In this document: piece after piece, positions 29,739-39,629 of the stretch | How the letters are laid out: the number at the start of each line of letters is the position of its first letter | Numbering within the stretch: the stretch's first letter is position 1 | Assembly: GCF_022809315.2 (NCBI RefSeq) | Contig: NZ_JAKZJU020000001.1 | Coordinates: 992,001 to 1,056,000, forward strand | DNA length: 64,000 bases | Source of the DNA: Mesosutterella faecium | Lineage (GTDB): Bacteria; Pseudomonadota; Gammaproteobacteria; Burkholderiales; Burkholderiaceae_F | Direction of reading: 5' to 3' | Position numbers and translations under genes: made by a program | The notes under the pieces: model-generated | Seen by the model: only the letters and a program-made list of their open reading frames with translations | Told to the model about the DNA's origin: nothing | Databases searched by the model: none

Positions 29739-29789
29739 GATCGCGCGGTTCATCTGGAACCGCCGGACTGGAAGTCCGCTTAACGCTGG

Positions 29790-29808
29790 AGCAGTGGTGC
29801 CCGGGACT
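29790..29808. repeat. attL core repeat
   Basis: AGCAGTGGTGCCCGGGACT, identical to 39538-39556. It corresponds to the 3' end (acceptor strand and CCA) of tRNA-Leu left behind at the distal end of the element. Bases diverge immediately on both sides beyond the 19-bp match. Confidence 0.9.
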
Positions 29809-29823
29809 AGCGCCAAACACGTT

Positions 29824-29841
29824 GCTGTGGAATTCCACAGC
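29824..29841. promoter_or_regulatory. Perfect 18-bp palindrome near attL
   Basis: GCTGTGGAATTCCACAGC is fully self-complementary, and GCGTGCTGTG occurs nearby at 29840-29849 and 29903-29912. It lies between the attL core and the integrase arm repeats, suggesting a binding site for an excisionase or repressor. Function is inference. Confidence 0.45.
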
Positions 29842-29935
29842 GTGCTGTGAAGATAAATAAAAACATCAGGTTAAAAGAATTCTGAATTTTTCAGTTGCCG
29901 TTGCGTGCTGTGGATAACTGCCTACAGCTATCATG

Positions 29936-29960
29936 TCTAAGTAGTCCCCTAAGTAGTCCC
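29936..29960. repeat. Arm-type direct repeats, left end
   Basis: Two tandem copies of CTAAGTAGTCCC (29937-29948 and 29949-29960). The same 25-bp tandem is at 39475-39499 near the other end, in the same orientation. Paired short repeats inside both ends are typical arm-binding sites of tyrosine integrases. Here they also lie 16 bp before the integrase start, so binding could autoregulate int. Confidence 0.7.
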
Positions 29961-29976
29961 GGAGAAACGCTGCGAC

Positions 29977-31290
29977 ATGAGAAAAGCAAAAGACCTGACG
30001 GTAATAGCCATTGAGTTCTTCATTAAAGAGACAAAGACAAAGGGGCGTGAAAGCCACATATCGGACGGAAAAGTACCGGGGCTTTCTCTCTGGGCGCGCT
30101 GCGTGCCGAAAGTGACGGCGCGGTGGAAATACACCTACAGGCGCTCCGGTGAAAACAAAACCTTCGGACTAGGGCTCTATCCGGAGGTGACGCTGAAGGC
30201 CGCGAGGGAACAGGCGGCGCGGCTCAGGGCGCAGCTTCTAAACGGAATAGATCCCCGGGAAGAGGAACGAAAGAAGAAGGCTGCGGACAAACAGGCCCGG
30301 CTTGCGGCCGCACATGATGCGATAACTGTAGGCGAACTGTTTGAACAATTTATAGAGGCCCAGAGGGACAACTGGAGCCGGGAAAAGTATCGGCTTACCG
30401 AACCCAACAGGGTACGGCGCCACATCATGCCCCTACTGGGTTCGATTTCGGTTGAGGAAGCGACAGTTTCGGATGTAGCCCGGGCGGCGAAGGCTGCGTG
30501 GTTGGAGCGCCCGGAGACGGCCAGAAAGGCTTTAGCGCTGTTGGGAAAGTTTTTCGACTGGGCCACAGTAGCGGGCTTCCGCAGAAACAAATCAAACCCG
30601 GTGAACTTGAAGCAAATAACGCTGATTAACGGGAAGGTGCGGCAGCAGGGAGGGCACCGCGGGGCGGTGGATTGGCGGCAGATTCCTGATTTATTCGCAG
30701 AGCTTCACCAGAGGAAGGGAACGGCGGCGCGGGCGCTCATGTACGCAATTCTGGCCAATGTCCGAATAGAAAACGCGATAGGGCTGAGGTGGGGCGCAGT
30801 GGATTTGGAAAAGGGCGTAGTGCGCTATCTGGCGTCCGAAATGAAGGTAAAGGGCAACGGAGACTTTACGGCTTGTCTTGCCACTCAAACCGTGCAGCTG
30901 CTGAAAGCCCAGGCTGAAGAAAATGAGACTATGGGCCTGAATGGGGGCGGCTATGTCTTTCCATCCGGGGCGAAGAAGGGCGCCCACATTACGAACGCGA
31001 TCCTTGAGCAGACCATGAAGCGCATATGCATTGAGCGGGGGCTTGTAGACCGTCAGGAAACCGAACGAGCCGGAGCGCCGGTCTATCCAACCCCGCACGG
31101 GACGGCCCGCGCTTCCTTTCTTACATGGGTGGTGGACAACAAGAAAGACCGAGCGGCCGCGGAGGCAAACCTTCACCACAAGATAGAAACGAAGATAGGC
31201 GCTGCCTACAACAGGGCCGACTACATGGAAGAGCGCAGGAGGCTGACGCAGGAATGGGCCGACCTTTGCTTCTCAAAGATTCCGCACTGA
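29977..31290 (+). CDS. int: P4-type tyrosine integrase
   Basis: A 437-residue integrase: N-terminal arm-binding DUF4102-like domain (about 1-100, KVPGLSLWARCVPKVTARWKY...FGLGLYPEVTLKAAREQA), core-binding SAM-like domain (about 115-210), and catalytic domain (about 230-430). Catalytic residues are visible: Arg263 (NVRIEN), a Lys near 290, His374 and Arg378 (PHGTAR), His401 (LHHK) and the nucleophile Tyr411 (AAYNRAD). All are intact, so it is probably active. It catalyses recombination between the 19-bp cores. It lies at the end of the element away from tRNA-Leu. Confidence 0.95.
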   Translation: MRKAKDLTVIAIEFFIKETKTKGRESHISDGKVPGLSLWARCVPKVTARWKYTYRRSGENKTFGLGLYPEVTLKAAREQAARLRAQLLNGIDPREEERKKKAADKQARLAAAHDAITVGELFEQFIEAQRDNWSREKYRLTEPNRVRRHIMPLLGSISVEEATVSDVARAAKAAWLERPETARKALALLGKFFDWATVAGFRRNKSNPVNLKQITLINGKVRQQGGHRGAVDWRQIPDLFAELHQRKGTAARALMYAILANVRIENAIGLRWGAVDLEKGVVRYLASEMKVKGNGDFTACLATQTVQLLKAQAEENETMGLNGGGYVFPSGAKKGAHITNAILEQTMKRICIERGLVDRQETERAGAPVYPTPHGTARASFLTWVVDNKKDRAAAEANLHHKIETKIGAAYNRADYMEERRRLTQEWADLCFSKIPH

Positions 31291-31295
31291 AGGCA

Positions 31296-31386
31296 GGGGG
31301 GAATAGGGGGAAAAAGGGGGAACGCAGTATTGACGGGGCTTAGAGCTGAACAAGCAAGGGGGAATTAAGGGGGAATATAGGGGGAA
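31296..31386. repeat. Iteron cluster AGGGGGAA, left
   Basis: Six same-orientation copies: a six-G variant at 31295-31303, then AGGGGGAA at 31305, 31315, 31357, 31368 and 31379. The last three are spaced exactly 11 bp apart. The same octamer is clustered again at 39194-39316. Such iterons near a primase/helicase system suggest replication-initiator binding, as with the P4 ori/crr pair. Function is inference; the repeat itself is plain. Confidence 0.7.
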
Positions 31387-31414
31387 TAGAAGGGAAAAAT
31401 TTATTTATTTTTTT

Positions 31415-31434
31415 ATCTATCTATCTATCTATCT
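31415..31434. repeat. ATCT tetranucleotide microsatellite
   Basis: Five perfect ATCT units follow an A/T-rich run (31396-31414) just after the iterons. It is not inside a recognised gene. It could vary by slippage or form part of an A/T-rich unwinding region next to the iterons. Confidence 0.6.
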
Positions 31435-31525
31435 TTCCATTCCTTCCTATTACATCCCGGCGCTTGTTTTTGTCAGGCGCTGCTGCTCCGGCAGCTGCGA
31501 TTCATCCCCATCTGGAGCGGTGAAA

Positions 31526-31768
31526 ATGCAACTAGTAAAGCACAGCGCCGGACGGACGGGGAGAGCAAAGGACGGCGAGCAGGAAAACCTAACAAAAGCT
31601 AACCTGCTTCATGCGCGCGAAAAGTTAAAGAAATTCGGGCAGTGCTTTTCCGGTGTTGGGGGCGCCGGCGGGCAAAGAAGGCCGCAGCCTCCGCGGCCGG
31701 GACTGGAGGGAGGCGCCGGGGTGAATAGGTTTTCCGGACGGTTCGCGCGGAGGCGCGCGGAGAGTTAA
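31526..31768 (+). CDS. Small basic protein of unknown function, doubtful
   Basis: An 80-residue open frame starting MQLVKHSAGRTGRAKDGEQ with GGAG at 31514-31517. The sequence is basic and Gly/Arg-rich at the C-terminus (GVGGAGGQRRPQPPRPG), with no recognisable domain. It sits between the iteron region and a convergent RHH gene. It may not be translated. Confidence 0.3.
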   Translation: MQLVKHSAGRTGRAKDGEQENLTKANLLHAREKLKKFGQCFSGVGGAGGQRRPQPPRPGLEGGAGVNRFSGRFARRRAES

Positions 31769-31773
31769 GGAAA

Positions 31774-32004
31774 TCAATCCTGCTTTGCCGGTCTTTCCGG
31801 GGCCGTGGAGGCGTCCGGCAGCGGCGCCGCATCAATTGCCCCATTCAGCCAGTCGCGGCCGCCCAGTGCCTTTAATTTCTCAATGCGGGACGGCGCAAGG
31901 AACAGGACAATGCGCTGCACCCCCTCGCCTATCTTTTTCCGTCCGGCGCCCTTTCTGGCTCCGCCCCAGTTTGGATTTTTTGGTTTGGCCGGTTTACGCG
32001 GCAT
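31774..32004 (-). CDS. Ribbon-helix-helix-like small DNA-binding protein
   Basis: A 76-residue basic protein: MPRKPAKPKNPNWGGARKGAGRKKIGEG, then QRIVLFLAPSRIEKLKALGGRDWLNGAIDAAP. The GGARKGAGRK box followed by a beta strand and two short helices (about 30-60) is common in small phage and mobile-element RHH-type regulators. AGAGGTG lies just upstream of the start, and a good minus-strand promoter is at 32039-32068. It is a candidate regulator of the minus-strand arm of the element. Confidence 0.6.
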   Translation of the reverse strand: MPRKPAKPKNPNWGGARKGAGRKKIGEGVQRIVLFLAPSRIEKLKALGGRDWLNGAIDAAPLPDASTAPERPAKQD

Positions 32005-32038
32005 GGCTGCACCTCTCAGAAAAGAATTCAGTGCATTG

Positions 32039-32068
32039 ATTATATTGCATTTAATCGTGATGAATCAA
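32039..32068 (-). promoter_or_regulatory. Sigma-70 promoter for the RHH-like gene
   Basis: On the minus strand TTGATT (32068-32063) and a perfect TATAAT (32044-32039) with 18-bp spacing, 35 bp before the start codon. An inverted repeat ACATAAG/CTTATGT (32096-32113) lies about 28 bp upstream of the -35 and may be an operator or activator site. Confidence 0.65.
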
Positions 32069-32204
32069 TGGCATGATTTCTTCTTGATTAAGTGTACATA
32101 AGTCATCTTATGTTGACTAAAAATAGTGAAGATGCCTTATTTTGTTGGATCTTTACATTTCTTACCGCTCTTATTGAGGCGCCTTTCCGGCGGTGAATTT
32201 AAAC

Positions 32205-32741
32205 TTATCGCCACCTCCAACTGTTCATCCTCTTCCATTTGGCGGCTTTTAAAAACGTTTCAGCTTCCTCCATCCTTTCTACTTCCTTTCGTGCAGCCTT
32301 CCGCGCTGCGGCTTTCTCTTCCTCCAATTGGCCGGCGCAACCTTCGATCCTCTTCCTCTGGCTGAAGCGGCGATCATCCCTCAGGCCGGCTTCCCTCGCC
32401 AACCGCTGAATGTCTTCCTTGTAGGTTTTCGTGAGTTCGTCCGGGATGGCCCGGCCGGAGGCATAGATATCTTTAGAAACGGCCATGAATCGATCAAGCA
32501 GCGCAGCCCGGCGCTTGTCGTACTGCATAGAGGCCTTCTTTCTGGCTTTAATCGTATCGGCCAAAAAATCCTCGTGCTTGTTCTTCCATGCGTTCAGGGT
32601 TTGAACCGAAGGCATTCCCTCGCTGCTGCATATCTGTCTTTCCGATTCCCCGGCGCTGATGCGGGCAACAATGACGGCGGCCAGAACAGGCGAGTACATG
32701 GACGGCCGGCCCCGCTTCCTGTGCTGTGTTTCGGTGTTCAT
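32205..32741 (-). CDS. Terminase small subunit-like DNA-binding protein
   Basis: A 178-residue protein. The N-terminal 60 residues match the pattern of phage small-terminase-like proteins: RGRPSMYSPVLAAVIVARISAGESERQICSSEGMPSVQTLNAWKNKHEDFL, a helix-turn-helix of the GRPSKYTPEL...GESLRxICxxEGMPS type. The rest is highly charged, helical and Lys/Arg/Glu-rich. GGAGGGGAAA precedes the ATG. PICI-type satellites carry a TerS that redirects helper packaging, so this is a candidate for that role. Family assignment is by reading motifs, and a general DNA-binding protein is possible. Confidence 0.55.
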   Translation of the reverse strand: MNTETQHRKRGRPSMYSPVLAAVIVARISAGESERQICSSEGMPSVQTLNAWKNKHEDFLADTIKARKKASMQYDKRRAALLDRFMAVSKDIYASGRAIPDELTKTYKEDIQRLAREAGLRDDRRFSQRKRIEGCAGQLEEEKAAARKAARKEVERMEEAETFLKAAKWKRMNSWRWR

Positions 32742-32891
32742 TTTCCCCTCCGCTGAAGGCTTGATTGTGATGCACCTATTTTTTCACACTAAGCCCGCGG
32801 CCACAGCCAGAGGGTACCGGCGCAGCTCCATCCCGGGGACGAGCAGCGAGGCAAGCACCCCCGGGGAGGATTGAAAACCAACTCAAACCTT

Positions 32892-33264
32892 CCGCGACCT
32901 TCCTGCTCAAGTTTTTGCGCGCGTACGACTTTCAGTAAAAAACGAAGGCGAAAATGAGGGCCTGGGCTTTTGCGTGACGCGCGAGGGCGCCCTGATTCCC
33001 TGCTGCGGATGGTCTGGCCCGTATATGCAGCAATTCTTCGCACGGAAGCAGACAAAAGGGGTGGAGGGTCTTTTCCGTGAAGGAAACAAAACCTGCCTAG
33101 ACCGCGCCCTAAGCCAAATTTTTGCGCACGAACATCAATTTTTTGAAAAACCGGCAGCCCGGCGGCCATTGCACCCCACCCCCGGGGTCTAAAAGTAGCG
33201 GGCGAAGGCCTCTAGACCGCGACCTTAGCTGATTTTTTACGCGTGCAATTGGGATTTAAAAACC
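32892..33264. repeat. Three degenerate ~50-bp direct repeats
   Basis: Copies start with CCGCGACCT (32892), CCGCGCCCT (33102) and CCGCGACCT (33217). Each is followed by 10-12 mixed bases, TTTTTGCGC or TTTTTTACGCG, and about 20 bases later an A-rich run. They are similar but not identical, so probably protein-binding or structural sites rather than recent duplications. Confidence 0.5.
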
Positions 33265-33319
33265 TGAGAAAACCTGAGGAAGCCGAGAAAAAGCCCGAGA
33301 AAGCCGGTTAAAACCTGAG
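33261..33319. repeat. AACCTGAG short tandem repeats
   Basis: AACCTGAG at 33261-33268, 33271-33278 and 33312-33319, with variants AAGCCGAG (33280), AAGCCCGAG (33291) and AAGCCGG (33301). Spacing is about 10 bp. This resembles a small iteron array. Confidence 0.5.
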
Positions 33320-33513
33320 GAAACCCGGGGAGGACGCGCGCCTGTGTGCCCGCGCGGACAGTTAAACAATAAAATCCTACTAGGTGCGCTCCCGGCGCCG
33401 GACTGATCCCCGGCGCTTTTCCTGCGGTGCTGCGAAACCCCTTTATAAGCGGCCGCAGGACGGGGAGCGGCCCATCTGTTTGATCGAGGGCGTGAAAGGG
33501 GTAGGGGGCTTGA

Positions 33514-34560
33514 ATGAATCTTGAACAGCACAGGAAGTGGCTTTCCAAAAAGGGATGGACGGCGATAGAGGGCGCCCTGCTGCTTGCAGACATAGACCCG
33601 GACGCGGAAACTCGGGTTCCCCCAACATGGGGGCCGGCGTTCAATAAAGACATAAAGGGCTTTTTCCGTGAATTAATCATGTATTCGGGCAGCAATAGTT
33701 CCCCGGGCCGGGAGCTTCGCCGTGAGTTTTTAACGCGTGAGGTTGGTTATTGGAAATGTGCTTTTAGCGGGGTGGCTTTCCTACAACTACTAAATTTCGT
33801 AAAAATATTTGCCGCGTTCTGGGGTGCTATCGAAAAGCAAAATAATGCTCCATGGAGTGAAGAATTACGAACTTTCGATATCATTAGCGCTTTCCACTTT
33901 TACGATTTCTCTGACCTTTCAAACGAAGAGGGCAGGAGGCTTATAGATATCGAGTTCCCGATTCCATGGTTCTATGAATTTGCTAAAAATTTCGTAAGCA
34001 CTGCTTCGCCCAACAATAAATGCCCCCAACCTCTGGCGCTAAATGCCCCTATTTTTGGGTTGGTTGTCGAAGGCTCTAATGATTCTGGCACCGCCGGAAA
34101 GCGATCCCTTGAAGAAATATCGCAACTGCAAGCCAATATCAAAAAAATGGAGGCCCAGATAGACCAACTAAAGGCGCAGCTCGCAGCTGTGGCCGCGGAG
34201 CGGGACGAACTAAGGAAGCAGCAAGCAGCAGCGCCTTCCGGGGGCGGCGCCGGCGAGGATGATGATCTGGGGCGGGGCGTAACGGTGCAGGATGTCCGCG
34301 AGCTTTTGAAAACCACAAAGGAACAGGCGGGCGCAGCTGCTACTCTCCCACTGGCTGCAATGATTGAAGCGTTTGTTCATGTCCGGCGGTATGGATCGAA
34401 CAGGAACGGAACAAACGCGGCCATCCGGGATTATTTGAAGAAGAATTTTGTGGGTGAGGATGGAAAATGCATTTTTTCCCAGAATGTTCAGGAAGCTATG
34501 GGAAAGGTGAGCAACTGGCGGGTAAAACCGGGGCGGCCGCAGAAGAAAACTGAAGACTGA
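33514..34560 (+). CDS. Unknown 348-residue element protein with coiled coil
   Basis: I do not recognise this protein. It begins MNLEQHRKWLSKKGWTAIEGALLLADIDPDAE. The first 185 residues look globular with aromatic-rich helices (FSGVAFLQLLNFVKIFAAFW). A coiled coil follows (about 195-235, LEEISQLQANIKKMEAQIDQLKAQLAAVAAERDELRKQ), then an acidic Gly-rich linker and a C-terminal helical domain (about 260-340) ending in the basic GRPQKKTED. Codon usage is much more A/T-rich than the host, especially 33720-34020, marking it as acquired cargo. There is one G-rich ribosome binding site (33501-33507). The palindromic array 34569-34642 follows directly. Confidence 0.75.
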   Translation: MNLEQHRKWLSKKGWTAIEGALLLADIDPDAETRVPPTWGPAFNKDIKGFFRELIMYSGSNSSPGRELRREFLTREVGYWKCAFSGVAFLQLLNFVKIFAAFWGAIEKQNNAPWSEELRTFDIISAFHFYDFSDLSNEEGRRLIDIEFPIPWFYEFAKNFVSTASPNNKCPQPLALNAPIFGLVVEGSNDSGTAGKRSLEEISQLQANIKKMEAQIDQLKAQLAAVAAERDELRKQQAAAPSGGGAGEDDDLGRGVTVQDVRELLKTTKEQAGAAATLPLAAMIEAFVHVRRYGSNRNGTNAAIRDYLKKNFVGEDGKCIFSQNVQEAMGKVSNWRVKPGRPQKKTED

Positions 34561-34568
34561 AAAACTTT

Positions 34569-34642
34569 TATGGGTGTCGGAAATTATGGGCACCCATAAT
34601 TAAAGCTATGGGTACCCACATTTAAAGCTATGGGTACCCATA
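34569..34642. repeat. 22-bp-period palindrome array, candidate operators
   Basis: Three palindromic sites: TATGGGCACCCATA at 34585, TATGGGTACCCACA at 34607 and TATGGGTACCCATA at 34629, each starting exactly 22 bp after the previous one. The linker TTAAAGC is shared. A half-site TATGGGTG lies at 34569. Two-turn spacing on one DNA face suggests cooperative binding of a dimeric regulator. The array ends 8 bp before a possible -35 (34651-34656). Confidence 0.75.
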
Positions 34643-34650
34643 TTTTTTTA

Positions 34651-34678
34651 TTGAATTCCTCCACATACCCTTCATATT
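34651..34678 (+). promoter_or_regulatory. Candidate promoter for the alpA operon
   Basis: TTGAAT (34651-34656), 16-bp spacer, CATATT (34673-34678), right beside the palindrome array and about 120 bp before alpA. The match is moderate, and the location next to the operators is the main argument. Confidence 0.35.
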
Positions 34679-34796
34679 GCCGGGGGCGCCCATGCGTTGC
34701 TGTACGGCTTGCGCGTGTGGGGATCCCTCCGGCTGAAGATTCAAGCGGCGGCGATAAGGACGGCCGCCTGATGAACAGAATGGAGGAATCATCAAT

Positions 34797-35027
34797 ATGG
34801 AAACAATCACAATCGAGCCAGAGGCGAAGGAACAGGTTCGGCTTGCAGCAAGGCTTAAAGATGTGGCCGCGGCGGTTGGTCTGGGGCGCTCCACCATCCG
34901 GCAGTATGTCAGCGAGGGAACCTTTCCGAAACCCTTCAAGGTGGGGACGGCCACCCTCTGGTACTGGGATGATGTCCGGAAATGGCTGAATGAACAGGCC
35001 GAGAAATCCAGAAATACGGAGGCCTGA
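34797..35027 (+). CDS. alpA: AlpA-family regulator/excisionase
   Basis: A 76-residue protein with the AlpA/MerR-like winged helix-turn-helix: LAARLKDVAAAVGLGRSTIRQYVSEGTFPKPFKVGTATLWYWDDVRKWLNEQ (about 16-67). AlpA-type proteins in P4-like satellites activate or repress the integrase region and can act as excisionases. GGAGG lies 11 nt before the start (34782-34786). The next frame starts 2 bp after its stop. It is the likely ligand of the palindromes just upstream, though that is inference. Confidence 0.85.
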   Translation: METITIEPEAKEQVRLAARLKDVAAAVGLGRSTIRQYVSEGTFPKPFKVGTATLWYWDDVRKWLNEQAEKSRNTEA

Positions 35028-35029
35028 AT

Positions 35030-35506
35030 ATGCAGCGCATCCGCAGGAAATCAATTTCAATCCTCGACATCTTCCGGACTGAACCCGAACGCCCTCCAGT
35101 TGCCCCCAGAAAGCCCTGTAAGCCTTCCGGCGGGGATAAACAGCCGGGAACCTCAGGCAGTCCACAGAAGGGCGAGAAGGGCCGCAGAACGAAACGCGCG
35201 GCCGATATTTGCCACGGGGCGCCGCGCGGTGATAAAGTTTCCGCATCCGTATTAACAAGCGGATACGGCTTTAGCAGGCCGCAAAGCTATAGGCGAGCAA
35301 TCGCCGCACTTCTTCAAGCGCGGTTTTTTGTTGCTCAATCTCATGGCGTTAGTGCGCCCGCGGTTTCTATGGGCGCGCCGTGGGGGACGCCTTCGGGCGT
35401 GCCGGTTCCTATAGCCCGGTCTGCTAACCCCCACGGTGCCGCCCGCCCTTTAGCAGGGGCGCGCGGTTCCATTCCTTACTTAGCTATAGGAGCAAGCCAT
35501 GAGTAA
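35030..35506 (+). CDS. Ash/Icd-like conceptual protein overlapping the antisense RNA region
   Basis: A 158-residue frame beginning MQRIRRKSISILDIFRTEPERPPVAPRKP. The second half (VSMGAPWGTPSGVPVPIARSANPHGAARP) is the translation of the structured RNA at 35371-35444. Similar frames in P4-like elements are often annotated as Ash or Icd-like proteins and may be products of the conserved RNA rather than of selection on protein. GGAGG at about 35018 overlaps alpA and would allow coupling, so a translated leader is possible. An intrinsic terminator-like hairpin lies inside it (35304-35329). Confidence 0.35.
   Translation: MQRIRRKSISILDIFRTEPERPPVAPRKPCKPSGGDKQPGTSGSPQKGEKGRRTKRAADICHGAPRGDKVSASVLTSGYGFSRPQSYRRAIAALLQARFFVAQSHGVSAPAVSMGAPWGTPSGVPVPIARSANPHGAARPLAGARGSIPYLAIGASHE
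35271..35293 (+). promoter_or_regulatory. Upstream antisense target pair (a1, b1)
   Basis: TTAGCAG (35271-35277) and GCTATAGG (35286-35293) are exact complements of the CTGCTAA (35421-35427) and CCTATAGC (35408-35415) segments of the structured RNA. The order is right for antiparallel pairing. A terminator-like hairpin begins 11 bp later. Confidence 0.7.
35304..35329 (+). terminator. Intrinsic-terminator-like hairpin in the control region
   Basis: CCGC-A-CTT (35304-35311), CTTC loop, AAG-C-GCGG (35316-35323) with one A/C mismatch, followed by six T residues (35324-35329). It lies between the first target pair and the antisense RNA, where premature termination would lower expression of the replication genes. 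Confidence 0.6.
35371..35444 (+). ncRNA. C4/CI-type antisense immunity RNA
   Basis: A 74-nt cloverleaf-like fold read by eye. The enclosing stem pairs 35371-35386 with 35428-35444 (15 bp apart from one bulged C, with one G-U). Hairpin ACGCC-UUCG-GGCGU is at 35387-35400. Hairpin GCCGG/CCGGU (35401-35405 with 35416-35420) exposes the loop UUCCUAUAGC. CUGCUAA (35421-35427) stays single stranded. The exposed CCUAUAGC and CUGCUAA are complementary to two copies each of GCTATAGG and TTAGCAG, upstream and downstream. This is the architecture of P1/P7 C4 and P4 CI RNAs, which silence downstream genes of the same transcript. Transcription and processing are inferred. Confidence 0.8.
35450..35490 (+). 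promoter_or_regulatory. Downstream antisense target pair (a2, b2) covering a ribosome binding site
   Basis: TTAGCAG (35450-35456) and GCTATAGG (35483-35490) repeat the upstream targets. The second overlaps AGGAG (35488-35492), the Shine-Dalgarno of the small gene starting at 35499, so pairing with the antisense RNA would block its translation. Confidence 0.7.
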
Positions 35507-35660
35507 CGCTCGCAATGGCGGCCGCAGCATATCCGGCCGCAGCCTGTTTTCACCTTCTTCCCTCTCATCCATCCGGCGCCTTATTGGCGCAGCAGTGAAT
35601 GTTGCTGCTTTCCTGATGGCCATTGTCTTCGTTGTTCTTTTCTTCATGGAGAGGGCTTAA
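35499..35660 (+). CDS. Small single-pass membrane peptide, Icd/Kil-like position
   Basis: A 53-residue peptide: a basic, Ser-rich N-terminus (MSNARNGGRSISGRSLF...) and one transmembrane helix near the C-terminus (about 30-49, AAVNVAAFLMAIVFVVLFF) ending MERA. AGGAG at 35488-35492 is six bases from the ATG and lies within the antisense target. The next gene begins 2 bp after its stop. In P1 and P4 the gene at this point encodes a cell-division inhibitor or killer (Icd, Kil). There is no visible homology, so that function is a positional guess. Confidence 0.6.
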   Translation: MSNARNGGRSISGRSLFSPSSLSSIRRLIGAAVNVAAFLMAIVFVVLFFMERA

Positions 35661-35662
35661 CC

Positions 35663-36118
35663 ATGGCTGAGAACAAATACCCGGAAACCCTTGAAGGATT
35701 TAAGGCGGCCTACAGGTTCATGCTTCCCCCGGAGCAGCAGAAAATCGACCCACTGGAGCGGACCTTCAATCTGTATCTGGCTTACTCGTGGGCGCTCTGT
35801 TGGGATACTCCCGAAGGGAGAAACCTTTTTACAGGCGGGGCGAACGCCGCTCTGGGGCTTGAAACCCCTGAGGCCCTTGATCGGTTATCCGGAAACATAG
35901 GCGCGGTCAATGCGTTTTCGTCTGATCTGCTCAAAGCCGTTCGAATCATTGGAACGCTTGAGAAAACCGCCCCGGGCGCAATACCGGAAACAATCCCGAA
36001 AGAACTCTGCTACAGACTGCTTGTTTTGGCCCAGAACCTCGTGGATTACGGGAGGATGCTCACAACGCTGTTGGATGCGATTAGAAGCCCCTCGGACTGG
36101 AGGTGTAAAGCATCATGA
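35663..36118 (+). CDS. Unknown 151-residue element protein
   Basis: Not recognised. MAENKYPETLEGFKAAYRFMLPPEQQKIDPLERTFNLYLAYSWALCW looks helical; the rest is also largely alpha-helical (LDRLSGNIGAVNAFSSDLLKAVRIIGTLEKT, LCYRLLVLAQNLVDYGRMLTTLLDAI) with no transmembrane segment or obvious motif. GGAGAGGG lies upstream. It overlaps the primase gene by 4 bp (ATGA), so it is translationally coupled to the replication genes and may be an accessory or copy-control factor. Confidence 0.75.
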   Translation: MAENKYPETLEGFKAAYRFMLPPEQQKIDPLERTFNLYLAYSWALCWDTPEGRNLFTGGANAALGLETPEALDRLSGNIGAVNAFSSDLLKAVRIIGTLEKTAPGAIPETIPKELCYRLLVLAQNLVDYGRMLTTLLDAIRSPSDWRCKAS

Positions 36119-37137
36119 GCAGATATCCGACTTTCCCTACCCGGTTCGAACTGTTCGCTGCAATGGGCATTGAAGACCGGGGCGACATCAAGACCGGCGG
36201 CCAGATCATCCGCACCAATCGGATTGATCGCGGGCGCCGGGACGATTCCGGCTACTACATGGTTTTCCCAACGGGCTGCATTCTGGCCGGCTGTTGGAGT
36301 ACGGGGCTGTCCGGTCTGTACCTTCCCAAGGGCGGGCGCCGTTTAAGTAAAGAAGATATTCGCCATATGAAGGCGAAGATTGAGGCTGAGCGCGAGGCGG
36401 CCAGAATCAAACAGGAAAAGGAACATGAAGCCGCGGCCGGTCTGGCTAAGGCGGTCTGGAGCTTTTCCCTGCCGGTCAATCCCTCTTTCTGCTGCTTCGC
36501 CTATTTCCAGAAAAAGGGACTTTCCCCGGTGAGGGAATGCCGCACATTGGGCTGCATCAAAATCAAGAAACTAGCCCAACTTATCGGCTACTGGCCCCGG
36601 GGCAAGGGCGCCCGGCTGTTAGCCGGAGAGTGGTGCCTAGTCGTTCCAATCATCAAGCAGGGACGGATTCGCAGCCTTGAAATGATTGACGGAGACGGCG
36701 GCAAGTCCTTCCTCCGGGGCGGCGATCTGCGCGGCGGCTCGTGGTGTACCCAAGGAGGTTTTGAGGCGGCGCCGGTGATCGGAATATGCGAGGGAGTAGC
36801 CACTGCGCTCAGCATTGCCAGATTGAAAAAGTACGCAGGTATTCCGGTGTTCGCTGCCATGTCCTGCGGGAATCTGGAGCGAGCGGCCGAAATCATTCAA
36901 GCCGACTATCCAAACTCGGAAATCATTGTGTTCGGGGATGTGGGCAACGGTTCAGGCTGCGCGGTTTCCGCAGCGCAGCGCACCTATTCGGGGCGGTACT
37001 GCTTCCCTTCGTTTTCAGACATAGACCGGGCGGTGTTTTCGGAAACGATTGGGGGCGAGCCTACGGATTTCAACGACTACTACCAGATAAAAAAAATAGA
37101 GGGAGCGATAAAGCATCATGCTGAGCGAGAAAACTAA
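36115..37137 (+). CDS. Toprim-domain primase of P4 type
   Basis: A 340-residue protein. The N-terminal part has conserved Cys and aromatic residues (YYMVFPTGCILAGCWSTG) and a charged helix (about 75-115). The C-terminal Toprim domain has ICEGVATALSI (Glu226), a strand VFGDVGNGSG (Asp275) and PTDFNDYY. This matches the primase half of P4-alpha-like proteins, synthesising primers for element replication. The usual helicase half is a separate gene next door that overlaps its 3' end by 20 bp, so the alpha function is split over two proteins. Confidence 0.8.
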   Translation: MSRYPTFPTRFELFAAMGIEDRGDIKTGGQIIRTNRIDRGRRDDSGYYMVFPTGCILAGCWSTGLSGLYLPKGGRRLSKEDIRHMKAKIEAEREAARIKQEKEHEAAAGLAKAVWSFSLPVNPSFCCFAYFQKKGLSPVRECRTLGCIKIKKLAQLIGYWPRGKGARLLAGEWCLVVPIIKQGRIRSLEMIDGDGGKSFLRGGDLRGGSWCTQGGFEAAPVIGICEGVATALSIARLKKYAGIPVFAAMSCGNLERAAEIIQADYPNSEIIVFGDVGNGSGCAVSAAQRTYSGRYCFPSFSDIDRAVFSETIGGEPTDFNDYYQIKKIEGAIKHHAEREN

Positions 37138-39079
37138 AAAGAAACTTTTAAGCGAGGGGCAGGACGAGACGGCGCCCGCAGTGCAGGAGGGCCGGGCCTT
37201 CCCAAAAATCGCGATAAACGGGCATGAATTTGTTCCGAAGGATGGCGCCTACTGGCTGCACCAGTCGAAGGATGCGGAGGAGGACAAGGACATAAAACTA
37301 TGTTCCCTGATCCGCGTTACTGCCAAATACTCGAGCAGGGACGGGCTTACTCGCGGCCTGATTATCGAGGTGATTGATGAAGATGAAAATGCGGTGCAGC
37401 TTGTTCTGGGCATGGATGTAGTGAACGATTTAAGCGCCCTGATCAAGCGCCTTTCGAACGCGGGGCTGCGGATTTTTGCCGGATCGAGGCAGAATGGCCG
37501 CGGCCTGATCTCTGAACTTATATCCAACTTTCCCACGGCCAATATCGAGCGGCTGCGCGGCGTATCGGTGAACGGATGGATAAAGCCGGGCTACTGCTAT
37601 GTACGGCCGGGCGGCGAGGTGATCGGGAAGCTTTCGACCGGCCAGAATGTCATCAGCCTGGGCCATGATTACCCGGATGAATCGAAAGGAACGCTTGAGG
37701 GATGGAAGGCGAACGTAGCGCTTCCCGGGCTTAAATCCTCGCGCATCATGACGGCGCTAGGCGTGAGCTTCGCCGGAGCGCTGCTAGCCCTGATAAACAA
37801 GAGTTCCCGGGGGATTCATTTCTATGGAACCTCCACCACAGGCAAGTCCGTTACGGCCACTGTGGGCTGTTCGGTCTGGGGGACATCCAAAAACGCTGCT
37901 GAACCCGGTTCAGGGCATTTTGGCTCATGGAACACTTCGAGCGCAGGCGTAGAGGCTCATTTCAGAAGGAATAGCTCCAGTGTCTCAGCACTGGACGAGC
38001 TGCACCTAGCGGGGCGCCTGATCCGCGACTTGAAGGATGTTTCCTTGTTTTTCGGGAACGAGCAGCCGAGGGGGCGCGGAACCCCGGACGCTACGCTGCG
38101 GAAGCAATCAGGATGGCGTGAAACGCTGATCAGCACAGGTGAAAAGCCTGTGTATGAAATCCTGATGGAAAACGGCTGCAATGACCAGTCGGCAGGAGCC
38201 GAAAGAAGGCTTACGGGGGTGAATGCCATAGTGCCCGGAAGCCGGGATATTTTCGAGCCGGGCTATTTCCCGTCCTTTGCTGATTCTTTTAAATTCGTCA
38301 ATCGACTGGCTGAGATAACCGAAAACGAGCAATACGGAACCGCAGGGCCGGCTTTCGTCCGGAAGATTATCGAGCTTTACCAGAAGGAAGGGCCGGCGGC
38401 GCTGCCTGAAAAGGTGAAGGCCTTCAGGGATGAGGCCAGAAGCCGCTTCATCCCCCGGATTGATCCTTCCATGGTCGCGGGGCAGCAGCTGAATGAAGTT
38501 TTCGTAGGCTTTGAGGTTTACTATGCGGCGCTGAAACTGGCCCGGGAGTTTGAAGTGCTTCCCCCAGAGTACACAGATGAGGCCATAGGGGCTGCTATCC
38601 ATTCATGCGCTGAAAGCGCTGCGGAGAGCTTCCGGGGCAGCGATTGGCAGATGAGAAACTACGCGCAGCAGATTCTGGACGCACTGGTACAGAAGGGCGG
38701 CCATTTCATCCAACGGTACGAGACGGGAACAAAGGATGATATTACGGGGGAGGTCATGGAGAACTTCACGCCGGACGAAAAAACGGAAGTGTTCGGCTGC
38801 ATCCGCGGGCTTCATAAGGGAAGCGAAGACGAAACGGCTTACTTCATAAAGTCTGCCTTTTCGAAATACGTTGTTCCGGGGCGTATGGTCGATTCAGTGG
38901 CCCGGATGCTTCCCCGTTCCTGCTATGCGGGCAATATGGCGCCTTCGAGCATCAAAAACAAGGAAGAGAGGATGCGCAAGAAGTGGCTTTATAAAAGCCC
39001 AAAGCCGCTTGATGGGCTTGAGGCCGGGGTGCGCTATCTGGCGCTTAATGTCTCAGAGCTTAAGAAAATCGCAGGGTAG
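37118..39079 (+). CDS. DUF927 replicative helicase of satellite elements
   Basis: A 653-residue protein with a DUF927 ATPase core. Walker A is GTSTTGKS (237-244), Walker B is ALDELH (Asp293, Glu294), and sensor-like ISTGEKPV and RRLTGVNA follow. The N-terminal 190 residues are the DUF927-specific region (SRDGLTRGLIIEVIDEDENAV). It probably unwinds DNA during element replication together with the overlapping primase. The C-terminal 150 residues may bind DNA at the iterons just downstream (39194-39316). A terminator at 39105-39127 closes the operon. Confidence 0.85.
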   Translation: MLSEKTKKKLLSEGQDETAPAVQEGRAFPKIAINGHEFVPKDGAYWLHQSKDAEEDKDIKLCSLIRVTAKYSSRDGLTRGLIIEVIDEDENAVQLVLGMDVVNDLSALIKRLSNAGLRIFAGSRQNGRGLISELISNFPTANIERLRGVSVNGWIKPGYCYVRPGGEVIGKLSTGQNVISLGHDYPDESKGTLEGWKANVALPGLKSSRIMTALGVSFAGALLALINKSSRGIHFYGTSTTGKSVTATVGCSVWGTSKNAAEPGSGHFGSWNTSSAGVEAHFRRNSSSVSALDELHLAGRLIRDLKDVSLFFGNEQPRGRGTPDATLRKQSGWRETLISTGEKPVYEILMENGCNDQSAGAERRLTGVNAIVPGSRDIFEPGYFPSFADSFKFVNRLAEITENEQYGTAGPAFVRKIIELYQKEGPAALPEKVKAFRDEARSRFIPRIDPSMVAGQQLNEVFVGFEVYYAALKLAREFEVLPPEYTDEAIGAAIHSCAESAAESFRGSDWQMRNYAQQILDALVQKGGHFIQRYETGTKDDITGEVMENFTPDEKTEVFGCIRGLHKGSEDETAYFIKSAFSKYVVPGRMVDSVARMLPRSCYAGNMAPSSIKNKEERMRKKWLYKSPKPLDGLEAGVRYLALNVSELKKIAG

Positions 39080-39104
39080 TAGCATGAAGCTGCGGGGGCA
39101 TTCT

Positions 39105-39127
39105 GGCGGGGTCATCCCCGCCTTTTT
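39105..39127 (+). terminator. Terminator of the element's replication operon
   Basis: GGCGGGG (39105-39111), TCAT loop, CCCCGCC (39116-39122), TTTTT. It lies 26 bp after the helicase stop. Confidence 0.85.
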
Positions 39128-39193
39128 ATTACTCCGAAGAGGTAGAGGGAAATCACCTAGAAATGGGCCATTTTCCTTCGAAGGCGAGGAAAA

Positions 39194-39316
39194 AGGGGGA
39201 ATTCCCCCTACGTTCCCTCCACTAAAAACAGAGATGACGACAGCAAGGGGGAAGACAACATTTAATGAAATCAATATGTTACCATATTGAGCGGATTTGT
39301 TCCCCCTTTTCCCCCT
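39194..39316. repeat. Iteron cluster AGGGGGAA, right, with 16-bp palindrome
   Basis: AGGGGGAATTCCCCCT (39194-39209) is a perfect palindrome made of two facing octamers. Further copies are at 39246-39253 (plus), 39300-39307 and 39309-39316 (minus). The minus-strand pair with its flank (39300-39319) is an inverted near-copy of 31302-31322, differing by one A. The rest of 39128-39540 has no gene. Confidence 0.7.
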
Positions 39317-39356
39317 ATTTTTTGAAGGGTAGAGGAAGTTTTGTAAGAGGACGGGC

Positions 39357-39387
39357 AAAAAAAATACCCATCCGGGCGGGGGATGGG
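39357..39387 (-). terminator. Minus-strand terminator inside the element, facing tRNA-Leu
   Basis: On the minus strand CCCATCC (39387-39381) and GGATGGG (39373-39367) enclose a 7-nt loop, followed by TA and eight T residues (39364-39357). It can end tRNA-Leu transcripts entering the element. Confidence 0.7.
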
Positions 39388-39474
39388 TTCAGATCAGATT
39401 GAGCGAGAAAGCCAATCTGCTTTATATTCTAGGTCGAGCTTTCACTGCGTCAATGATCGTTTACAGCGAAGGGT

Positions 39475-39499
39475 TCTAAGTAGTCCCCTAAGTAGTCCC
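39475..39499. repeat. Arm-type direct repeats, right end
   Basis: Two tandem copies of CTAAGTAGTCCC, identical over 25 bp to 29936-29960 and in the same orientation, 38 bp inside the attR core. Likely integrase arm sites. Confidence 0.7.
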
Positions 39500-39537
39500 A
39501 GAATTGGGAATGCCCTTGAAAGGCCTGATACGATTGA

Positions 39538-39556
39538 AGCAGTGGTGCCCGGGACT
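39538..39556. repeat. attR core repeat
   Basis: AGCAGTGGTGCCCGGGACT, identical to attL. It overlaps the CCA end, the 3' acceptor strand and the first T-stem bases of tRNA-Leu, so the integrated copy restores a complete tRNA. Confidence 0.9.
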
Positions 39557-39629
39557 GGACTCGAACCAGCACGCCGGTGAAGGCGCTAGCACCTGAAGCT
39601 AGTGCGTCTACCAATTTCGCCACCCGGGC
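39543..39629 (-). tRNA. tRNA-Leu (anticodon CAG)
   Basis: An 87-nt class II tRNA: acceptor GCCCGGG (39629-39623) with CCCGGGC (39553-39547) and encoded CCA (39545-39543). Anticodon stem CTAGC/GCTAG, loop TTCAGGT, anticodon CAG at 39595-39593. It has a long variable arm (GCCTTCACCGGC region) and T loop TTCGAGT. It decodes CUG, a dominant Leu codon in this GC-rich genome. The 3' end is the integration site of the element on its left. Confidence 0.96.

Follow-up and report, generated by a model that had tools for sequence, protein, structure and literature searches.

The stretch of DNA analysed here, referred to as the window, comprises 64,000 nucleotides of Mesosutterella faecium (NCBI RefSeq assembly GCF_022809315.2, contig NZ_JAKZJU020000001.1, positions 992,001 to 1,056,000 of the forward strand) and carries, within an integrated element, a C4-type antisense RNA gene that lies between two pairs of target sites and precedes an operon of replication-type genes. 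Mesosutterella belongs to the Sutterellaceae within the Burkholderiales, Betaproteobacteria, and the term betaproteobacterial used for the locus in the initial annotation is correct. The RNA gene occupies 35365..35450 on the plus strand, with its core at 35371-35444. The Rfam C4 antisense RNA model (RF01695) matches 35365-35450 over its full length (1-87) with 73.5 bits against a cut-off of 45 (E 1.9e-12), and the same Rfam library gave C4 scores of 68.8, 74.9 and 78.8 bits for the reference loci of P1 (NC_005856), P4 (X51522) and N15 (NC_001901), respectively. The 74-nt core folds with -47.9 kcal/mol (z -4.49), a stability reached by none of 200 shuffled sequences. Its fold consists of an enclosing stem, a C(UUCG)G tetraloop hairpin, a second hairpin that exposes UUCCUAUAGC as the b' loop, and the unpaired a' sequence CUGCUAA, which are the structural marks of C4 membership. 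The initial annotation had described this fold and had proposed a C4 identity with a covariance-model search as its check; the identity stood up to that search, the fold was recovered as described, and all coordinates given there were found correct on re-check.

The recognition sequences of this RNA are rare in the window and their targets are duplicated around it. The b' sequence CCTATAGC has a single occurrence in the 64 kb (35408) and its complement GCTATAGG is found only at 35286 and 35483; CTGCTAA likewise occurs once (35421), its complement TTAGCAG being present only at 35271 and 35450. The duplicated exact targets that had been noticed at these positions are accordingly unique within the 64 kb. 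All four sites are on the plus strand. Target a1 (35271..35277) is the exact complement of C4 positions 35421-35427 and target b1 (35286..35293) that of 35408-35415, the final GG of b1 opening the first arm of a putative attenuator. Target a2 (35450..35456) is also an exact complement and changes in step with C4 in two relatives, L003 and L017, while the equally exact b2 (35483..35490) continues into the Shine-Dalgarno sequence AGGAG, placing it at the ribosome-binding site of the first controlled gene, whose ATG is at 35499. Predicted energies of the duplexes with C4 are -18.4 kcal/mol for b2 versus -13.6 for b1, and -14.5 for a1 versus -9.8 for a2; because b2 outpairs b1 while a1 outpairs a2, the pairs a1/b1 and a2/b2 are about equal in summed pairing. 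Complementarity of a' and b' to both pairs of sites is a further mark of the C4 family, and it is kept by co-variation among relatives.

Matches to the C4 model were found in 16 of the 67 genomes of the family (24 loci) and in 59 of the 399 genomes of the order (123 loci), the window being included in both counts. Ten of the order matches were already in the family set, 28 were at hand as loci, 80 were fetched, and five were left out (two near contig ends and three weak). Together with the 24 family loci this gave 132 loci, of which L061 was dropped as a duplicate, its C4 and target sequence being identical to those of L040 in the same genome, so that 131 were analysed. Both b targets match the C4 of their own locus over at least 7 nt in 80 of the 131 loci, and both a targets over at least 6 nt in 115. 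When the C4 loops were dealt to other loci, the corresponding means were 2.4 (maximum 6) and 21.5 (maximum 31) in 100 runs each. Among the 24 family loci the counts are 21 for b (permuted mean 2.0, maximum 6) and 23 for a (permuted mean 4.9, maximum 10), with 300 runs each.

Changes at the pairing sites themselves can be followed in four Mesosutterella leaders, which align over 275 columns with a mean column identity of 95%. The same AG/GA two-base change separates L017 from L002 at each of a1, C4 and a2; elsewhere in the aligned stretch the two differ at four further bases. In L003, a1, b1, both C4 loops, a2 and b2 all differ from the other aligned leaders with complementarity kept, and in the enclosing stem of C4 the window differs from the three other Mesosutterella relatives by one paired change. 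A check on complementarity in related elements, suggested by the initial annotation, is thereby answered: it is retained through coordinated change. Such joint change of pairing sites, as read from the sequences, is a strong sign that the pairing matters. L002 and L017 are located in one genome (G046) of the window's genus, and therefore two closely similar elements with different a specificity coexist there, a single case that proves no rule. Mesosutterella is not named in the 10 listed of 16 literature matches.

Some loci depart from the common arrangement. L076, L084, L094 and L100 possess a1/b1, but the 110 nt downstream contain no 7-nt match for a2/b2; judging from these sequences, the leader seems to be the sole target of their C4, unless a more remote target exists. 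In one contig (G061:C34), two C4 copies, L022 and L019, lie 0.9 kb apart, and the upstream copy, L022, is without downstream targets.

The leader and the C4 gene are also spanned by a 158-amino-acid frame (35030-35506), and the RNA structure could be a by-product of a coding sequence. The frame is open in the window and has the same open length in L002, but it has no protein family match in Pfam, PHROG or NCBIfam, and the C4 part changes by paired substitutions. Between the window and L002 the first 76 codons show 14 amino-acid-changing versus 7 silent differences, and the rest 3 versus 3. P4 cI has likewise been recorded as a 137-amino-acid protein despite the C4 RNA there. On the codon changes and the paired C4 substitutions, the coding reading was disfavoured and is barely credible.

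The operon behind b2 contains four genes on the plus strand. The first (35499..35660), whose ATG lies 8 nt after b2, codes for a 53-amino-acid protein with one predicted membrane helix (hydrophobic stretch with a Kyte-Doolittle value of 2.7 over 19 residues) and is kept in L002 and L017. It is followed by a gene for a 151-amino-acid protein (35663..36118) with no Pfam, PHROG or NCBIfam match, for which three related proteins were found, the window's own included. The third encodes a Toprim primase-like protein (36115..37137; phrog_2249, 5.9e-25), which scores 26.7 bits against PF13362, barely below the cut-off of 27.2, and the fourth a DUF927 replicative helicase-like protein (37118..39079; PF06048, 1e-32). 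The helicase is 96% identical to a Mesosutterella porci protein and 53% to one more, and the remaining 44 of its 46 relatives reach at most 30%; no helicase relative was confirmed in the viral contig set and one, that of M. porci, in the genome contig set.

The position of b2 is widespread in the family. With the search begun at +25, the first ATG is found 43-51 nt past C4 in 22 of 23 further family loci, L022 being the exception, and a b2 match of at least 7 nt shortly precedes it, a placement that resembles the window and P1. One downstream protein each was scanned from 20 of these 23 loci (L017, L020 and L022 were left out): 13 are of antirepressor types (Rha, Bro, ANT), five have no Pfam match, and those of L002 and L018 show a Toprim match below the cut-off. 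The protein of L009, one of the five without a Pfam match, is 30% identical to the window primase and that of L018 31%. The downstream protein types therefore indicate that the C4 unit serves antirepressor and replication operons alike, as in P1 and P4.

Several known systems share this organisation. The P1 c4/icd-ant locus has the same RNA family and the same order of a1, b1, c4, a2, b2 and first gene, with b2 shortly before the start codon according to the record annotation and a three-arm leader that can be read by eye; the likeness to P1 c4 and P4 cI proposed in the initial annotation agrees with this record. P1 controls icd and the ant antirepressor, whereas the window has the 53- and 151-amino-acid protein genes, primase and helicase. 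In P4, the cI/left operon locus has the replication gene alpha in the operon behind C4, a small DNA-binding protein gene (ORF88) upstream and a terminator-like hairpin after the first target pair, all as in the window. The two differ in their recognition sequences and in gene content: P4 has one alpha protein together with sid, delta and psu, while primase and helicase are separate genes in the window and none of sid, delta and psu was found in the 10 open reading frames (ORFs) scanned. The C4 locus of N15 resembles the window in its RNA and differs in its downstream region, where the Ant gene lies further downstream and an antirepressor takes the place of replication genes. Excerpts of PMC5320573 describe C4-like small RNAs of Acinetobacter baumannii whose a' and b' loops vary and which are cut from longer transcripts, as would be the case here; they form a large group of copies in one genome and have been proposed to act on bacterial transcripts too. 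The same excerpts summarise C4 biology as RNase P processing, b' pairing over the ribosome-binding site and a' as the specificity loop. C4 antisense RNA was listed in Proteobacteria and phages by Weinberg et al. 2010 (PMC2864571); according to PMC5320573, Burkholderiales were among the groups for which that work predicted C4. P1/P7 heteroimmunity is attributed to c4 in a 2025 review (PMC12197685).

Judged by its sequence, the locus is well supported as a genuine C4-type immunity circuit, and this antisense RNA very probably silences the replication operon of an integrated, satellite-like element, the effect on the downstream operon being assumed on the model of P1 and P4. What the sequence itself shows is the RNA family, the fold, the targets and their co-variation, the place of b2 at the ribosome-binding site and the leader geometry.

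The leader between the putative promoter and C4 has a composite structure. A candidate promoter (TTGCCA-18-TAAAGT, 35209..35238, plus strand, 9/12 in a consensus scan) directly precedes the a1 hairpin, in agreement with annotated P1 promoters and with relatives read by eye. Next are 5' leader hairpins containing a1 (35232..35285, plus strand), which are c4-a1b1-like (RF03163) at a score below the cut-off; the same model gives 51 bits in P1. An antiterminator-like hairpin, GGCGA-GCAA-UCGCC (35292..35305, plus strand; -7.3 kcal/mol alone), is followed by an intrinsic terminator-like, t1-like hairpin with a U run (35304..35329, plus strand; -7.6 kcal/mol alone), formed by a CCGC/GCGG stem and an inner CUU/AAG stem and then six U. 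The 3' arm of the former shares CC with the stem of the latter, or GCC if the closing G-U pair is counted, as in the layout rule. The terminator-like hairpin was already pointed out in the initial annotation; its stem and U run were found and are kept in all three aligned Mesosutterella relatives. The terminator rule of the scan did not list 35304-35329 and listed two others, both on the minus strand, and the terminator assignment therefore depends on fold and relatives. Minimum-free-energy folds of the window leader leave the winning hairpin unsettled.

This layout recurs in many C4 loci. In it, b1 ends in GG and opens a hairpin; the 3' arm of this hairpin shares bases (only 2-3 in the window) with the 5' arm of a terminator that carries a U tail. 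By a fixed rule the three-arm layout was found in 67 of 81 testable loci, compared with a mean of 11.3 and a maximum of 20 in 200 runs in which the part before the terminator was shuffled, and it can also be read in P4 and, by eye, in P1. Mean predicted terminator pairing over the 81 loci is 0.67 in the free leader, 0.81 with b1 blocked and 0.61 with a neighbouring stretch blocked. Blocking b1 gives a higher value than the neighbouring-stretch control in 49 of the 81 loci and a lower one in 6; relative to the free leader it is higher in 34 and lower in 5. It may tentatively be proposed that C4 units form a single modular switch with two points of action, the first of them an antisense-controlled attenuator. 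In P1, P4, the present element and most of the testable C4 loci of Burkholderiales, b1 would be built into the first antiterminator arm, and pairing with C4 would by itself create the terminator; the same unit would have been fitted to antirepressor and replication operons. The new part would be the built-in antiterminator arm as a general means, a CI-like RNA acting on a leader terminator having already been proposed for P4 and Gifsy-1. The term "antiterminator hairpin" is absent from the matching literature, a search that did not extend to the primary P1 and P4 papers, in which the arm may have been published.

The wide occurrence of the b1/terminator layout (67/81) could also mean that C4 mainly controls its own level, and the operon with it, via a1/b1 and the t1-like terminator, with a2/b2 secondary. 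CI-dependent termination in P4 at site t1, before cI, is reportedly described in Briani et al. 2000. In the window a1 pairs better than a2, and the four loci that keep a1/b1 without a 7-nt a2/b2 match within 110 nt agree with such a role. Excerpts of PMC4825925 state that P4 CI RNA pairs with seqA and seqC, causing transcription termination. Set against this are the stronger pairing of b2 than of b1, the near equality of the two site pairs in sum, and the fact that in 22 of 23 fetched family loci b2 closely precedes the first start codon; a mainly self-directed control appears doubtful.

A different role for the leader is suggested by Gifsy-1 IsrK/STnc1160, which resembles the window in having a terminator-ended leader RNA, a processed RNA, a short ORF and an operon, and in which the short leader RNA activates translation of the downstream operon in trans; P4 SeqA has been named a structural homolog of IsrK and a CI-like role suggested for STnc1160 (excerpts of PMC4825925). 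The short t1-terminated leader could accordingly be an IsrK-like RNA with a1/b1 that titrates C4 and turns the operon on when abundant. The Rfam isrK family (RF01394) matches the a1-b1-terminator leader of P4 with 60.8 bits and that of N15 with 62.4 bits, and binding of the CI-like STnc1160 by IsrK, disabling it, is a published idea. The same authors tested this for STnc1160 with a result against it (PMC4825925, same excerpts), and the isrK score of the window leader is below the cut-off, unlike the P4 and N15 leaders; titration is therefore regarded as unlikely. The isrK matches in the C4 leaders of P4 and N15 lie at L026:2616-2693 and L137:8415-8490; no clan is listed for isrK, and C4 is in CL00128.

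In the preferred reading, that of a C4-type circuit with two points of action, a single transcript from a promoter just before 35240 would contain a1, b1, the t1-like terminator, C4, a2, b2 and the operon in this order. C4 RNA, about 77 nt long in its family, would be cut out of it, as RNase P does in P1 and P7, and would act in trans at both points. At a2/b2 it would cover the ribosome-binding site of the 53-amino-acid protein gene, turning this gene off and, by polarity, the primase and helicase genes. At a1/b1 it would capture the first antiterminator arm and thereby let the terminator form, restraining both the supply of C4 itself and the operon. It would also silence a newly arriving element that shares its specificity, which would amount to immunity. 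Expression, processing, repression, polarity, the attenuator switch and immunity are thus presumed features of the circuit.

Several observations weigh against this reading. The promoter scan found one site where 0.6 were expected, a weak match, and the C4 core of the window starts with GGGC, while the RNase P motif given for C4 in the excerpts of PMC5320573 is GGW. Neither leader model reaches its cut-off: c4-a1b1 gives 20 bits against 46.7 across the whole model (E 0.0087 with 401 bases searched), and isrK 16.3 bits against 50 at 35245-35328, the corresponding leader. L007 has a poor Shine-Dalgarno sequence. Identical a'/b' pairs occur in 0 of 220 within-genome comparisons (1 of 223 with L061) and 5 of 8423 between genomes, a comparison without power, as only 0.35 are expected when a' is shuffled within genomes. 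The three-arm layout is found in only 17 of 23 testable family loci, and 50 of the 131 loci were outside the layout test, 13 because no b1 match reached 6 nt and 37 because the rule recognised no U run; some loci probably have their true b1 elsewhere than at the longest match. Blocking b1 lifts predicted terminator pairing in the window only a little, from 0.82 to 0.92 (control 0.67), and gives no rise in L002 and L003, because the terminator is predicted to win anyway in these leaders; the switch would therefore have to be kinetic.

The integrated element, about 9.77 kb long (about 29788..39556), lies between two direct copies, 21-22 bp long, of the 3' end of a tRNA-Leu(CAG) gene (39543-39629, minus strand); the copies (29787-29808 and 39535-39556) are 95% identical. 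The congener G047 has the empty site (L146), with the flanks joined and one repeat copy. G+C content is 0.52-0.58 in the element versus 0.60-0.74 outside. Besides the operon, it encodes a tyrosine integrase (29977..31290, plus strand; Pfam Phage_integrase, Arm-DNA-bind_3, Phage_int_M), an Sf6 terminase small subunit-like (TerS-like) protein (32205..32741, minus strand; PF20901 1.1e-10, phrog_1482 1.2e-15), a 348-amino-acid protein and an AlpA-type regulator (34797..35027, plus strand; PF05930 2e-7, 31.2 bits, cut-off 21). Upstream of alpA, 34585-34650 holds three tandem repeats of about 22 bp with the palindrome TGGGTACCCA or near it, which are possible operators; M. porci holds one match to the repeat pattern used as query (L025:6555). 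Near both element ends lies a 41-nt repeat (29923-29963 and 39462-39502, 83% identical) with TAAGTAGTCCC twice within it, possibly the integrase arm sites. Five overlapping AAAACCTGAG-like copies spaced by 10-21 nt are located upstream of the 348-amino-acid protein gene (33259-33335).

Phage-inducible chromosomal islands are defined by an integrase, an AlpA-type regulator, primase/replication genes, an optional TerS and the absence of structural genes. Integrase, AlpA, Toprim/DUF927 and TerS-like genes were found in the element, a possible island of this kind. In the M. porci element (L025) the TerS-like gene is missing from the equivalent position, and only a 35% match of 69 amino acids is found elsewhere. 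No capsid match above the cut-off was found in the 10 ORFs scanned, the 348-amino-acid protein giving a sub-threshold coiled-coil match to a capsid model (E 0.009). Neither sid, delta and psu nor a one-piece alpha was matched among them, and by this criterion the element is not a P4-like satellite. Read from its genes, namely integrase, AlpA, TerS-like, primase and helicase, the label satellite is plausible. That a defective element left this circuit behind as a relic is highly unlikely. The missing helper or structural gene above the cut-off in the 10 ORFs scanned and the absence of TerS from the equivalent position in M. porci would suit a relic, but the int, alpA, 53-amino-acid, 151-amino-acid, primase and helicase frames are open and are kept in the M. 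porci element with 65-96% identity (47% for the 348-amino-acid protein), and the targets match C4 exactly.

C4 in Burkholderiales had already been predicted, and the new facts are the operon content and the natural three-site covariation, a compensatory change that is evidence for the pairing. The classic immunity circuit of P1 and P4 is now placed in satellite-like elements of gut Sutterellaceae, and the 131 loci allow tests of what the first target pair does.
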